The notes beneath the pieces are model-generated. The model ran no database searches. It was not told the DNA's origin and saw only the letters and a list, made by a program, of their open reading frames with translations. A program made the translations under genes and the position numbers. From Peptococcaceae bacterium BRH_c4a (GTDB lineage: Bacteria; Bacillota; Desulfotomaculia; Desulfotomaculales; Desulfocucumaceae), in contig LADN01000004.1 in NCBI GenBank assembly GCA_000961585.1, positions 1 through 54,796 of the forward strand: DNA of 54,796 nt. Reading direction: 5' to 3'. Positions 13,553 to 46,615 of the stretch are shown here, in pieces. Position 1 is the stretch's first letter; every line of letters begins with the position of its first letter.

Positions 13553-13569
13553 ATTAACCTCCCCCATAA

Positions 13570-13652
13570 TTTTTAGGACTCGCCGGATCAGGTACGGTCA
13601 GCCGTTTTAATAAAACCTGCTCCGTGCGGTGGTCATTTGATTTAGAGCCTAC
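13570..13652 (-). promoter_or_regulatory. Structured 5' leader of rplU, L21-leader candidate
   Basis: The transcript between the promoter and rplU holds about 85 nt with short complementary segments (a CGCACGG-containing arm and a later CCGTACCTG segment). Many Firmicutes carry an autoregulatory L21 leader at this position. The assignment rests on position and rough complementarity, not on a matched covariance model. Confidence 0.4.
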
Positions 13653-15727: not shown

Positions 15728-16040
15728 AGCCGTTAATCCCCATAGGGACGACGGCTCGCGGTACCACCCTACTTGACCCCGGGAAGGGCCCAGCTCTTTC
15801 GAAAGGCACAGGAAGTTATTAACCCATACCCCTTCCCTGTAACGGAGGAAATCCGTTTCGGCCTACTTTCCCGCTATCCGGCTTCAGGATTGCATCCTGG
15901 TTTCAGCCTCAAAGCTCGGGGGCGAACTTCAACCGGTCCTAACCTGAAAACGCTCACAGCCAACGGCGCTTTCTCCCTGGAAGGAGGTTTCCTGCCTACT
16001 TTTCCCCGTCATTACTTTTTATTTGTAAATATTCAACTAA
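15728..16040 (-). ncRNA. T-box leader of the symporter operon
   Basis: On the minus strand the T-box consensus AGGGTGGTACCGCG lies at 15770-15757. It is followed by a terminator stem AGCCGT/ACGGCT (15756-15728) and a T-rich tail. Upstream are the expected Stem I parts: GACGGGGAAAAGTA, an AGGGAG segment, a GGCTGTGAG segment, and GAAGTTCGCC followed by CCCGAG. T-boxes bind an uncharged tRNA and prevent termination. By the usual placement of the specifier after GAA, the best candidate codon is TTC (Phe) at 15926-15924, with GTT (Val) as alternative. The specifier assignment is tentative; the T-box call is firm. Confidence 0.92.
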
Positions 16041-30449: not shown

Positions 30450-30916
30450 AAAATAACCGCCTTGCCGGCGGTGCCGTCTTGCAGACGGCGGAATCCAGGA
30501 GCCAGAAGCCAGAATCCAGAATGGTGACAGACTGCCTTAAAAGCGACCCTCAAGCGACCCCACAGCGACATGCAGTGAGGGGGAGTGATTTAAGTCCGTG
30601 CGGAATGTACCGGAGGCTGCTACTGTCTCTTAACGACCGAGCCTACGGAATGCCGAGCCGGCTGCAGGACGCAGCCGGAAGCCGGAATCGACGCATGGAT
30701 GCGGCGTTGGAGGCGGTCGGCATTCCGTTGGCGACCGAGTTTAGAGACAGTTGCAGCAGGAGGTTATGCAGGCCGGACTTAAATCGCTCCGCCTACCCAT
30801 TAGCGACAATGCAGCGACCCTCAAGTGACCCAGGAGCGACCCCGGAAAAACTCTGGGCTTGCATAAAAATGCTTTGGCGATTTAGCGCTTTAATGCTTTA
30901 AAGCGTCATATACTTT
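30450..30916 (+). repeat. Long inverted-repeat element, complete copy B
   Basis: Same architecture as 12507-12893. Hairpins ACCGCC/GGCGGT and GCCGTCT/AGACGGC, four heptads (30490-30520), the block with ACATGCAGTGAGGGGGAG, stem arm GGAGTGATTTAAGTCC (30582-30597), interior, complementary arm GGACTTAAATCGCTCC (30775-30790), hairpin CCCGGA/TCTGGG (about 30840-30857), GCATAAAAATGC, an 8-nt array and ATATACTTTCC. The interior folds back on itself (ACTGTCTCTTAACGACCGAG near 30625 against a reverse copy near 30738-30772). It differs entirely from the interior of copy C but matches copy A. It lies between minC and the ger operon; no coding potential was seen. Confidence 0.85.
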
Positions 30917-42673: not shown

Positions 42674-44083
42674 TTAATCCTTTCGAACAACACCGGTTTT
42701 GGCCTGTTCACCCTGGGCCTCCAGTTTCTTGGAGATGGGCGCCAGTATAAGGGCGATTATTGCTCCCACCGCCAGTGTGCCCAAAAGCGATATCACACCG
42801 GGGTAATAATACCAAAAGAGCAGGTATCCCGTTGACACAATTATTGACATTAGCATCAGTGGAAAGGCCACCTTCATGAAGCCCAGGAAGCTGATCTGGG
42901 TACCCCTCTTTTCTGCCATTCCTATTACCACCACATTGGCCGAGGCCCCAATTATGGTGCCGTTTCCACCCAGGCAGGCGCCCAGGGACAGGGCCCACCA
43001 CAGGAAGTTGAGGTTTTCAATTCCGCCCAGCCTGCCCATATCCTGAATCATGGGGATCATGGTGGCCACAAAGGGTATATTGTCCACAAAGGCCGAGGCT
43101 ATGGCCGAGATCCACAGAATGAGTATTGCCGAGGGGACTATTGCGCCCCCGGTAACTCCCAGGGAGAACTTTGCAACCGCCTCAATAACCCCCACATGCT
43201 CCAGTGCCCCCACAATTACAAATAACCCCACAAAAAAGAATATAACCGGCCACTCAACGGCATGCAGGGCGTGTTCGGGGTCCTCCCTGGAAAGGAGCAG
43301 CAGAAGGCTGGCGCCGCTCAGGGCGATGACAGAGGATTCCAGGTGAACGAACTGGTGCAGTATGAAACCGGTTATGGTCAGGGCAAGTACAATAAGGCAC
43401 TTTCTCAAAAGCGCAGTGTCCTTAATTTCATCATCTTCATCCAGCTTCAGTATCTCCAGCTGCAGCGCCGGATCGGCAACCAGTTGCTTTTTATAAATAA
43501 ACCTCAGGGCAAACATAGTCAGTACGTAAATCACTACTATGACGGGGGTCAGATTAATAATAAAATCCATAAACCCCAGTTTTGTGGCGCTTCCTATCAT
43601 TATATTGGGAGGATCTCCAATAAGGGTGGCCGTCCCTCCTATGTTTGAAGCCAGAATTTCCACAATCAGGTAAGGAAGGGGGTTTATTTCCAGCTTCTTG
43701 GCGATGGCGAAGGTTACCGGAACAATGAGCAGGACGGTGGTAACATTGTCCAGTAACGCCGACAGCACCGCAGTTACCAGAGCCAGGGCTACCATGATTT
43801 TAAGCGGGTGCCCCCCGGATCTCTTGGCCGCCTTTATGGCCAGGTACTCAAAAACACCGGTTTGCCTGGTAATTCCCACAATAATCATCATACCCACCAG
43901 AAGGCCGATGGTGTTGAAGTCAATGGCCCGGACGGCTTCTTCCGGACCTAAAACCTTGGTCAGGGCCATCAGGGCGGCGCCCACCAGGGCCACCACCGTA
44001 CGGTGTATTTTTTCGGAAACAATAACAGCATAAGTAATCAGGAATACCGCGGTAACAAAAATAACCTGATAATTTTCAAACAA
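42674..44083 (-). CDS. ArsB/NhaD-type ion transporter
   Basis: 469 residues with about 11-12 membrane segments, an internal two-fold repeat and the family motifs DNVTTVLLIVPVTFAIA, ASNIGGTATLIGDPPNIMIGS and, in the second half, FVDNIPFVATMIP and GACLGGNGTIIGASANVVVIG. These define the ArsB/NhaD branch of the ion transporter superfamily (sodium/proton or arsenite/anion transport); the substrate is not decidable by eye. The start is TTG with GGGAGG 7 bp upstream. Transcription begins about 270 nt earlier at a strong promoter and passes through a structured leader and terminator. Confidence 0.88.
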   Translation of the reverse strand: MFENYQVIFVTAVFLITYAVIVSEKIHRTVVALVGAALMALTKVLGPEEAVRAIDFNTIGLLVGMMIIVGITRQTGVFEYLAIKAAKRSGGHPLKIMVALALVTAVLSALLDNVTTVLLIVPVTFAIAKKLEINPLPYLIVEILASNIGGTATLIGDPPNIMIGSATKLGFMDFIINLTPVIVVIYVLTMFALRFIYKKQLVADPALQLEILKLDEDDEIKDTALLRKCLIVLALTITGFILHQFVHLESSVIALSGASLLLLLSREDPEHALHAVEWPVIFFFVGLFVIVGALEHVGVIEAVAKFSLGVTGGAIVPSAILILWISAIASAFVDNIPFVATMIPMIQDMGRLGGIENLNFLWWALSLGACLGGNGTIIGASANVVVIGMAEKRGTQISFLGFMKVAFPLMLMSIIVSTGYLLFWYYYPGVISLLGTLAVGAIIALILAPISKKLEAQGEQAKTGVVRKD

Positions 44084-44203
44084 AGGTGCTTCCTCCCGCC
44101 TTTTTAAAAACTTGTCTTTTTTAATAACTTCTTTATTTTAAAGTATGATCAATTTTAATCTCTTTACTCACCCCCTGTGGATGACAGATATCCAGAATAT
44201 TGC

Positions 44204-44240
44204 AAAAAAAAGGAGATAGCCTTTAGGGCTACCTCCTTTT
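44204..44240 (-). terminator. Strong terminator inside the transporter leader
   Basis: 14-bp stem (AAAAGGAGGTAGCC against GGCTATCTCCTTTT, one G-U pair) with loop CTAAA, followed by eight T on the minus strand. It lies between the promoter at 44392 and the transporter start at 44083, so it must be read through for expression. Confidence 0.9.
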
Positions 44241-44357
44241 GTCACCACAAACTGGATATCAAGACACAAAAAAGGATGGAAGCCACAAAGACTACCCACC
44301 CCAGTAAGTCTGAACCTTGAAACCCCTAAGGGGCCAACTCGATTTCATTATTCAGTT
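44241..44357 (-). ncRNA. Structured leader, candidate aptamer of an unassigned riboswitch
   Basis: The transcript downstream of a promoter can fold in three elements. CCCC/GGGG hairpin (44333-44330 with 44326-44323) is flanked by GAAA/TTTC. AGACT/AGTCT hairpin (44311-44307 with 44293-44289) has a loop holding GGGTGG (44301-44296). CCATCC (44279-44274) can pair with that loop as a 6-bp pseudoknot. A terminator follows. This is the architecture of a transcription-attenuating riboswitch. I could not match it to a class I remember, including ydaO, fluoride, guanidine or manganese leaders; I cannot exclude sodium or lithium classes. Confidence 0.55.
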
Positions 44358-44363
44358 AGTATA

Positions 44364-44392
44364 ATTATATATTATTTTCACCCTTCTGCCAA
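44364..44392 (-). promoter_or_regulatory. Sigma-A promoter of the transporter leader
   Basis: TTGGCA (44392-44387), 17-bp spacer, TATAAT (44369-44364) on the minus strand, 28 bp after the spoVD-like stop codon. A near-consensus promoter, showing the leader is transcribed on its own. Confidence 0.85.
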
Positions 44393-44419
44393 TATGTTTT
44401 TAGGTTCATTACAGTCCCC

Positions 44420-46615
44420 TCAGTTTTGCCTTTTCGGAGGGGCAAACTCCACCGTAACCGGAGTGCCTCTGGGAACCCTCCGACCAGGCCGGGGGGTTTG
44501 GCCCACTGCAATTCCACTGCCCACCGATCTGAAGTCCAGATCCAGCCCCTGCAGTATTATTCCTGCCCTCCGGATGGTCAGCCCCCTGAAATCGGGAACC
44601 AGCACATCGGCAGACGGGGTTGAGCCCCCCGCCCAGATGCTGACCACCGATCCTCTTTTTAAAAGGCTTCCTCCCGTTGGCTTTTGATCATGGATTAATC
44701 CCTGCTTACCCACCACGTCTGGACGCAGCCCGCTTTCCACCAGGAAGTTCCGGGCTTCTTCCACGGGGAATCCCAGCACCGAGGGTATTCTAACCAGCCC
44801 GCTGCCTCCGGCGGACGCCGGTCTCTCTTCCGTCTTGGGGGCATTTTTCTGTTTTGGCAGGTCCGGGTTTTCGGGTGCGTTGAGGTAGTGCAGGGTATCC
44901 CCGGCCAGTGTCTGAAAAGCCGGGGCAGCCACATCACCGCCATGGTATCTTTCGCCTTTGGGATCGTCCACCATTACCAGCACCGCGATCCTTGGGTTTT
45001 CGGCCGGAGCAAATCCGGCAAAGGAAGATACATATTTGTCCGCCTTATACCCTTTTTGGCCCGGCACCTCTGCGGTTCCGGTTTTTCCCGCCACTGCGTA
45101 ACCTTCCACATAGGATTTTTTGGCCGTACCCTCCAGCACCACTCTCTGTAAAATCCTGTTTATCTGGCTGGAAGTGCCCTTGGTAACCACCTGTCTGACC
45201 ACCTGGGGTTGATAACTATTTAAAGCCTTATTCCCGGGGTCTTCCATTGCCCGGATTAGCCGGGGTTTAATAAGGTATCCCCCGTTGGCCAGGGAAGAAA
45301 CTGCAGTTACCAGCTGTATAGGTGTAACCGCCACAGACTGGCCTATGGACATGGTGGCCAAATCCAGCTCACTGGCCTTTGCCTCCGGAATCACCAGCCC
45401 GCCTTCTTCCCCGGGAAGATCGATCCCGGTGGGCTTTCCAAAACCAAATCCATTTATGTATTTATATAGAAGCCGCTTTCCCGACCGGAGGCCGACCTCG
45501 GCAAACACCGGATTGCAGGAATTCATAACCCCCTCGGCAAAGGTCTGTAATCCGTGCCCCCCCCAGTCCCAGCATCTAATCTTAATACCGCTTACCACAA
45601 TGTACCCGGGGTCGTTTAAAATGTCCGTCTCCCGTATGGTTCCCTCTTCCAGGGCCATGGCCGCCACAAACATTTTGAAGGTGGAGCCCGGTTCATAGTT
45701 GAAGTGCACCGCAGGGTTAAAATCCCAGGTGGACTGAGGATAGGAGGAATACACGGCGGGGTTGTAGGTGGGCCTTGCGCCCATGGCCAGTATTTCCCCG
45801 GTGGCCGGGTCCATCACTATTATTGAGGACCTGGAAGGCTTGTAGGTTTGCTCAAGTTTGTCCAACTCCCGTTCAACATAATACTGAATGGTGCTGTCTA
45901 TGGTAAGAATAAGGTTTTTCCCGGGAACCGGGGGAATGTATGTTGATTTCGTCTGGGGAAGTTCCAGCCCAGTGGCGTCCTTTTCAGCCACCAGGCGGCC
46001 CGGCGTTCCGTTTAGCTGGCTGTCGTAACTCCTTTCTATTCCTCCCCGGGCGGACGGGTCCATTCCCACAAAGCCCAGCACATGGGCTGCCAGGCTGCCC
46101 TGGGGATATGATCTCCTGGTTCCTTCGATAAATCCTATTCCCGAGGCCTTATGCTCCTTCAGCATGTCCGTAAGCTTTTGACAGGTGTCGTAGTCCACTT
46201 TGTGCTTCAAAATAACAAAAGCCTTTTTGGAGTTCATCGCCGAAATGGTTTGTCCCTCATCCAGGGACAGTATGGAAGCAATCTGCTTTATTGTTTTTTC
46301 CTTAATTGCTCTTTCCTTTTCCTGTTTGTTTTCCCCGGCCTCTGTCTTAACCCTGACTGAAAATATGTCAGGATTGGCGTAGATGGTTTTGACCGGATAA
46401 TTACCTGCCAGTTCCACATGGTTTCGGTCGTATATCACTCCCCTTATGGGTTCCACAACCTCGTCACTGGCCCTGACATCGGTGGCCTTACGGCTCAGCT
46501 CTTCCCCTCTTACCAGTTGAAGCCATGACAGGCGAAAAACCATAACCACAAAAAGAATTGTCATGATTATGGTAAGAAATACGATCCTTTTTTTATTAAA
46601 AATACTGGCGGACAC
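44420..46615 (-). CDS. spoVD: SpoVD-like class B PBP with two PASTA domains
   Basis: About 731 residues. One N-terminal membrane anchor (about 10-28), dimerisation domain with PIRGVIYDRN, transpeptidase domain with GSTFKM (active serine), SCN as the S-x-N motif and AGKTGTAEVPG, then two C-terminal PASTA repeats (about 625-685 and 690-730). The domain order is that of SpoVD/PBP2B; SpoVD makes spore cortex. It sits alone rather than beside murE, so PBP2B-like function cannot be excluded. GTG 46615 is preferred, since the longer frame to 46705 would overlap the upstream phosphatase gene. Confidence 0.85.
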   Translation of the reverse strand: MSASIFNKKRIVFLTIIMTILFVVMVFRLSWLQLVRGEELSRKATDVRASDEVVEPIRGVIYDRNHVELAGNYPVKTIYANPDIFSVRVKTEAGENKQEKERAIKEKTIKQIASILSLDEGQTISAMNSKKAFVILKHKVDYDTCQKLTDMLKEHKASGIGFIEGTRRSYPQGSLAAHVLGFVGMDPSARGGIERSYDSQLNGTPGRLVAEKDATGLELPQTKSTYIPPVPGKNLILTIDSTIQYYVERELDKLEQTYKPSRSSIIVMDPATGEILAMGARPTYNPAVYSSYPQSTWDFNPAVHFNYEPGSTFKMFVAAMALEEGTIRETDILNDPGYIVVSGIKIRCWDWGGHGLQTFAEGVMNSCNPVFAEVGLRSGKRLLYKYINGFGFGKPTGIDLPGEEGGLVIPEAKASELDLATMSIGQSVAVTPIQLVTAVSSLANGGYLIKPRLIRAMEDPGNKALNSYQPQVVRQVVTKGTSSQINRILQRVVLEGTAKKSYVEGYAVAGKTGTAEVPGQKGYKADKYVSSFAGFAPAENPRIAVLVMVDDPKGERYHGGDVAAPAFQTLAGDTLHYLNAPENPDLPKQKNAPKTEERPASAGGSGLVRIPSVLGFPVEEARNFLVESGLRPDVVGKQGLIHDQKPTGGSLLKRGSVVSIWAGGSTPSADVLVPDFRGLTIRRAGIILQGLDLDFRSVGSGIAVGQTPRPGRRVPRGTPVTVEFAPPKRQN

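Follow-up and report, generated by a model that had tools for sequence, protein, structure and literature searches.

A probable Na+-I riboswitch with two terminators precedes an ArsB/NhaD-type transporter gene in Peptococcaceae bacterium BRH_c4a

What does the structured leader ahead of an ArsB/NhaD-type transporter gene in Peptococcaceae bacterium BRH_c4a sense? The gene lies in the window, by which we mean the whole stretch of contig LADN01000004.1 that was analysed (54,796 nt). It occupies positions 42674–44083 of the minus strand, starts with TTG and encodes a 469-residue protein of the ion transporter superfamily (PF03600 CitMHS, 344.8 bits; PF02040 ArsB, 67 bits). Upstream, also on the minus strand, a gene for a spoVD-type penicillin-binding protein stops at 44420. 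The leader runs from 44392 to 44084 of the minus strand. A first-pass annotation described a near-consensus promoter, a leader of about 270 nt and a compact pseudoknotted aptamer of an orphan riboswitch class. The promoter is present. Its −35 element, TTGGCA (44392–44387), and −10 element, TATAAT (44369–44364), are 17 nt apart and match the consensus at 11 of 12 positions. The leader length is also sound, at about 274 nt of RNA up to the TTG at 44083. A putative ribosome-binding site, GGGAGGA (44097–44091), was located by eye. The original observation is confirmed, and its interpretation as a whole is partly supported. Control of a single transporter gene by a terminator-based riboswitch is borne out. 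The orphan status is not, and our main reading, at a probability of about 90%, is that the leader is a Na+-I riboswitch working as a sodium ON switch for the transporter gene.

All Rfam matches in the leader are sub-threshold. The best by far is to RF03071, the Na+-I riboswitch, formerly known as the DUF1646 motif. The match is complete and colinear, spans 50 nt (44339–44290, minus strand) and scores 32.1 bits against a gathering score of 40.5. The E-value was 9.3e-5 in an Rfam search of 701 bases (43900–44600) and 1.1e-4 over the whole genome, where this is the sole match to RF03071. Compared with the published Na+-I RNA (White et al. 2022, PMC9337991), the window aptamer has a short P1 with a 3-nt loop, and one additional U bulges out of P2 on its 5' side. 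These features probably account in part for a score below the cut-off. We also built a model, R1, from an alignment (A1) of 35 aptamers; these came from different genomes within the order and phylum, and the window was left out. R1 scored the window aptamer at 44.3 bits (E 2.4e-10 over the genome) and the next-best match in the same genome at 13.2 bits (E 1.2). Furthermore, the window copy has all invariant and near-invariant bases of the class alignment; namely GUUG, UUUCAAG (including CAAG) and GGGGUGG. The published RNA lost its response to Na+ when the corresponding CAA and loop G positions were mutated (PMC9337991). The first-pass annotation had proposed an Rfam search that included the Na+ and Li+ classes. 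Apart from Na+-I, the region 43900–44600 gave no match to the Li+ classes nhaA-I and nhaA-II, or to any other riboswitch class, at E up to 10. The nhaA RNAs (PMC9646797) share with our leader that they are ion-sensing and precede cation transporter genes. By the first-pass annotation's own reckoning, a direct match to a known class would make this RNA known rather than new. Hence, judged by its sequence, the leader belongs to a known class, and the window aptamer is an additional Na+-I member.

Both 5' hairpins of the first-pass annotation are there, though P1 and P2 describe them better. P1 (44337–44317) has a UUG/CAA base, a UU bulge and a GCCCC/GGGGU stem, and together with the CAAG motif reads UUGGCCCC-UUA-GGGGUUUCAAG (44337–44316). 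P2 (44310–44290) pairs GACUuACU with GGUAGUC around the loop GGGGUG (44302–44297), which is near-invariant in A1. Covariation was assessed in 46 distinct aptamer sequences, whose alignment was fitted to the model and is hence biased towards the structure. In this set, 93.4% of cells were paired and ten pairs had changed on both sides (6/10 in P1 and 4/7 in P2). None of 500 shuffles reached the same covariation score. When the helices were slid out of register, the paired share dropped from 93% to at most 62%. Both helices thus covary, and this comparison, also proposed beforehand as a check, leaves the RNA standing.

The supposed pseudoknot joined GGGTGG (44301–44296) to CCATCC (44279–44274). 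This complementarity is real, but it extends into a closed 11-bp hairpin of −13.1 kcal/mol, and we rejected the pseudoknotted aptamer as a candidate. The hairpin (44301–44274; T1) consists of GGGTGGG-t-AGTC (44301–44290), a loop (44289–44285) and the 3' arm GGCTTCCATCC (44284–44274), and is followed by the U-tract TTTTTT (44273–44268). Its 5' arm is drawn from P2, with which it competes; folding with P2 enforced abolished T1, so P2 and T1 are mutually exclusive. The arrangement is visible in nearly all relatives. T1 is the normal Na+-I expression platform, as described by White et al. (PMC9337991), whose RNA has in common with ours the UUG/CAA base and UU bulge of P1, the GGGGUGG loop of P2, a terminator built from the 3' strand of P2 and a site before a transporter gene. 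A new, pseudoknotted class, as originally envisaged, would accommodate the lack of any leader match above the Rfam gathering score. However, it conflicts with a specific Na+-I match by two models and with the identity of the supposed pseudoknot as the inner part of T1, and we consider it highly improbable.

Class membership points to Na+ as the ligand, and class and anatomy together suggest ON control. Briefly, a transcript would start from the promoter at 44392–44364 and present the 50-nt aptamer as its first structured element. At low Na+, the 3' strand of P2 would pair with 44284–44274 to form T1, and transcription would halt at 44273–44268. With Na+ bound, P2 would be held, T1 would be blocked and the polymerase would continue to the transporter gene.

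Orthologous leaders were compared next to the same neighbour. The transporter gene sits in the same place after spoVD in four other genomes of the family (G001, G002, G005 and G007). Their leaders all have a promoter, an aptamer of Na+-I type, T1 and a second terminator, T2. In the place of the window's −35 element these promoters have TTGATG or TTGCTG, and a conserved TATAAT follows after about 17 nt. A leader missing from orthologues had been named beforehand as a sign against the RNA; it is present in five of five syntenic orthologues. The aptamers have not all kept their sequence. G001 and G002 carry a U to G change in the conserved P2 loop, and in G005 the P1 base has decayed (UCAG, UUCAAAGG) and R1 misses the aptamer. 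An aptamer of Na+-I shape might have drifted to another ligand, either another monovalent ion or none, while keeping the P2/T1 switch. The window score below the Rfam cut-off, the loop change in same-genus orthologues and the decayed P1 of G005 are in keeping with such drift, and White et al. (PMC9337991) leave altered specificity possible for some members of the class. Yet the window copy retains every invariant and near-invariant class base, and sodium-coupled transporters stand under perfect aptamers in relatives. We therefore regard drift as unlikely here and retain Na+ as the probable ligand.

The orthologues L039 (1312–1361) and L040 (3010–3059) from the same genus have GGGGGG in place of GGGGUG in the P2 loop, as do most of the c-di-GMP-I composites described below. 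G037, G101 and G102 (L179:2894–3529, L023/L174, L024/L035 and L175:2511–2835) carry two or three Na+-I switches in a row, spaced by about 265 to 300 nt; several of these switches have T1 and T2-like hairpins of their own.

The transporter protein does not reach the NCBIfam cut-off for either ArsB or NhaD. Among proteins of solved structure, its relatives include an arsenical pump membrane protein and the sodium-coupled DASS/NadC symporters. Its substrate is probably Na+, or else an anion whose movement is linked to Na+. In relatives, a Na+-I switch with T1 only heads an operon whose products are a protein of about 330 residues, an ArsB/NhaD-type transporter and a DASS sodium-coupled symporter that scores over its NCBIfam cut-off. 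This content fits a sodium regulon. The first protein of the operon (L181:3270–4286, L182:4537–5526) gave no confident match in Pfam or NCBIfam; its start presumably resembles an IS1634-type transposase. In Desulfotomaculum-type bacteria this ArsB/NhaD-type transporter is poorly characterised, and probable sodium control narrows its likely function.

The 14-bp terminator of the first-pass annotation is real, and is the second of two. T2 (44240–44208) has arms at 44240–44227 and 44221–44208 that are 93% complementary, folds at −20.4 kcal/mol and ends in a T run that continues out of the 3' arm (44207–44204). It lies 27 nt from T1. The published Na+-I examples that we compared have one terminator per aptamer (PMC9337991); the window has a second one, and the 5' arm of T2 mimics the 3' strand of P2. 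This arm, AAAAGGAGGTAGCC (44240–44227), is a candidate antiterminator partner for the T1 3' arm and U-tract (44284–44268), with a pairing energy of −12.7 to −13.6 kcal/mol. T2 is found in five of five syntenic orthologous leaders, though its sequence has changed fully. All five leaders downstream of spoVD likewise allow the T2 5' arm to pair with the T1 3' arm, again with both sequences completely changed (for example UACCACC/GGUGGUA, GACCUUGCC/GGUGAGGUC and CGGCUUC/GAAGCCG). The second terminator is thus a mildly unusual addition that is common to the closest relatives.

We tentatively propose a two-terminator relay, which we hold to be plausible though somewhat doubtful. The T1 3' arm would choose between the 3' strand of P2, giving T1, and the look-alike 5' arm of T2, blocking T2. 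An occupied aptamer would leave the T1 3' arm unpaired, so that it could bind the 5' arm of T2 and hinder T2. Na+ would then disarm two serial terminators via one aptamer, and the OFF state would be tighter than in the published single-terminator Na+-I switch. If true, the relay would be a case of two terminators controlled by a single small ion aptamer. We infer the coupling of T1 and T2 partly from swapping arms between leaders, which are related, so that none of the following fractions is a true probability. With hand-set arms from eight lineages, 14 of 40,320 permutations fitted as well as the natural combination. Because arms set by hand could introduce bias, the comparison was redone with fixed-length arms in five leaders (3/120; 0.025) and then with one automatic rule in 28 leaders (349/20,000; 0.017). 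The signal was weaker, but still present. The automatic rule split the 28 leaders into 15 with pairing energies of −9 kcal/mol or lower, all five syntenic leaders among them, and 13 weaker than −7 kcal/mol.

Alternatively, T2 could be an ordinary terminator under no regulation, keeping the basal level low, with T1 alone being switched. This would be compatible with the class assignment, and we put it at roughly even odds. In the window alone, the antiterminator pairing is within chance when compared with shuffles (p 0.25). With P1 and P2 imposed on the fold, the T1 3' arm paired with the T2 5' arm once the latter was made, but the complete T2 won. At equilibrium T2, at −20.4 kcal/mol, outweighs the antiterminator (about −13 kcal/mol) and forms even with the aptamer enforced, so a relay in the window would need kinetics. 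Consistent with an unregulated T2, T1 is the sole terminator in most of the order's Na+-I leaders. The many such cases include the same-family loci G003 and G006 and the second loci of G005 and G007; by eye, T1 only is also seen in Na+-I leaders from the rest of the phylum. Conversely, the retention of T2 in all five syntenic orthologues, despite its fully changed sequence, and the better fit of own than of swapped arms argue for a regulated T2.

The closest known arrangement is the tandem Na+/c-di-AMP riboswitch of Dehalobacter (PMC9337991). There too, a Na+-I aptamer is followed by two terminators, but a separate c-di-AMP aptamer serves the second. In the window, the 27 nt between T1 and T2 cannot fit a second aptamer, and we rejected one there in the absence of a credible Rfam match. 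We also rejected T2 as a mobile repeat, as it has one copy in the genome. A literature search on two-terminator riboswitches found nothing relevant, though such RNAs may have been described before. Two further observations concern the same region. The T1 3' arm (44284–44274) could also pair with the ribosome-binding region, GGCGGGAGGAAGC (44100–44088; −13.9 kcal/mol). This may be chance, and we give it little weight since any C/U-rich arm suits a purine-rich Shine-Dalgarno site. A perfect 9-bp inverted repeat, GATATCCAG/CTGGATATC, flanks T2 at 44187–44195 and 44252–44260; inspection by eye did not reveal it in G001, one of the syntenic orthologues.

The sensor before this transporter is not the same in all relatives. 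Orthologous transporters were collected by a protein-led search that was blind to RNA; the class-level genome search took in the same genomes as the order-level search. Eight orthologue leaders (L115, L099, L105, L110, L112, L122, L131 and L136) carry a c-di-GMP-I aptamer (RF01051, 56 to 70 bits), a class with no Rfam match in the window. Behind this aptamer stands a near copy of the Na+-I P2 hairpin; GACUGCCGGGGGGGGUAGUC, or GACUUUACUGGGGUGGGUAUAGUC in L115. The hosts belong to sister families; Desulfofundulus, Desulfotruncus, Desulfoscipio, Desulfallas, Pelotomaculum and one Peptococcaceae genome. The P2-like hairpin was absent from all 27 of the other c-di-GMP-I copies examined. A pattern search for the composite found 19 places in 18 of 113 genomes (L214–L232, position ~1500), and the reversed-pattern control found 0. 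In composites of the Pelotomaculum type, the c-di-GMP aptamer apparently takes the place of the apical part of Na+-I P1, between GUGUUGG and CAAGG (GUGUUGG[c-di-GMP-I]NNCAAGG). These leaders are possible composite c-di-GMP/Na+ riboswitches, a lead outside the window locus. Formate/nitrite transporters follow some composites, in one case with a molybdenum riboswitch after the composite, so Na+ need not be what the hairpin senses in these leaders. Since sodium-class and c-di-GMP-class sensors precede the same transporter in different relatives, riboswitch evolution can be studied directly at this gene. One more orthologue leader (L127:1195–1440) has a Na+-I-P2-like hairpin, GGACUUUACUGGGGCGGGUAUAGUU, behind about 200 nt that match no Rfam family. 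Elsewhere in the window, matches above the Rfam threshold were a T-box leader (15741–16021, minus strand), a TwoAYGGAY RNA (30608–30765, plus strand) and an L21 leader (13566–13641, minus strand).
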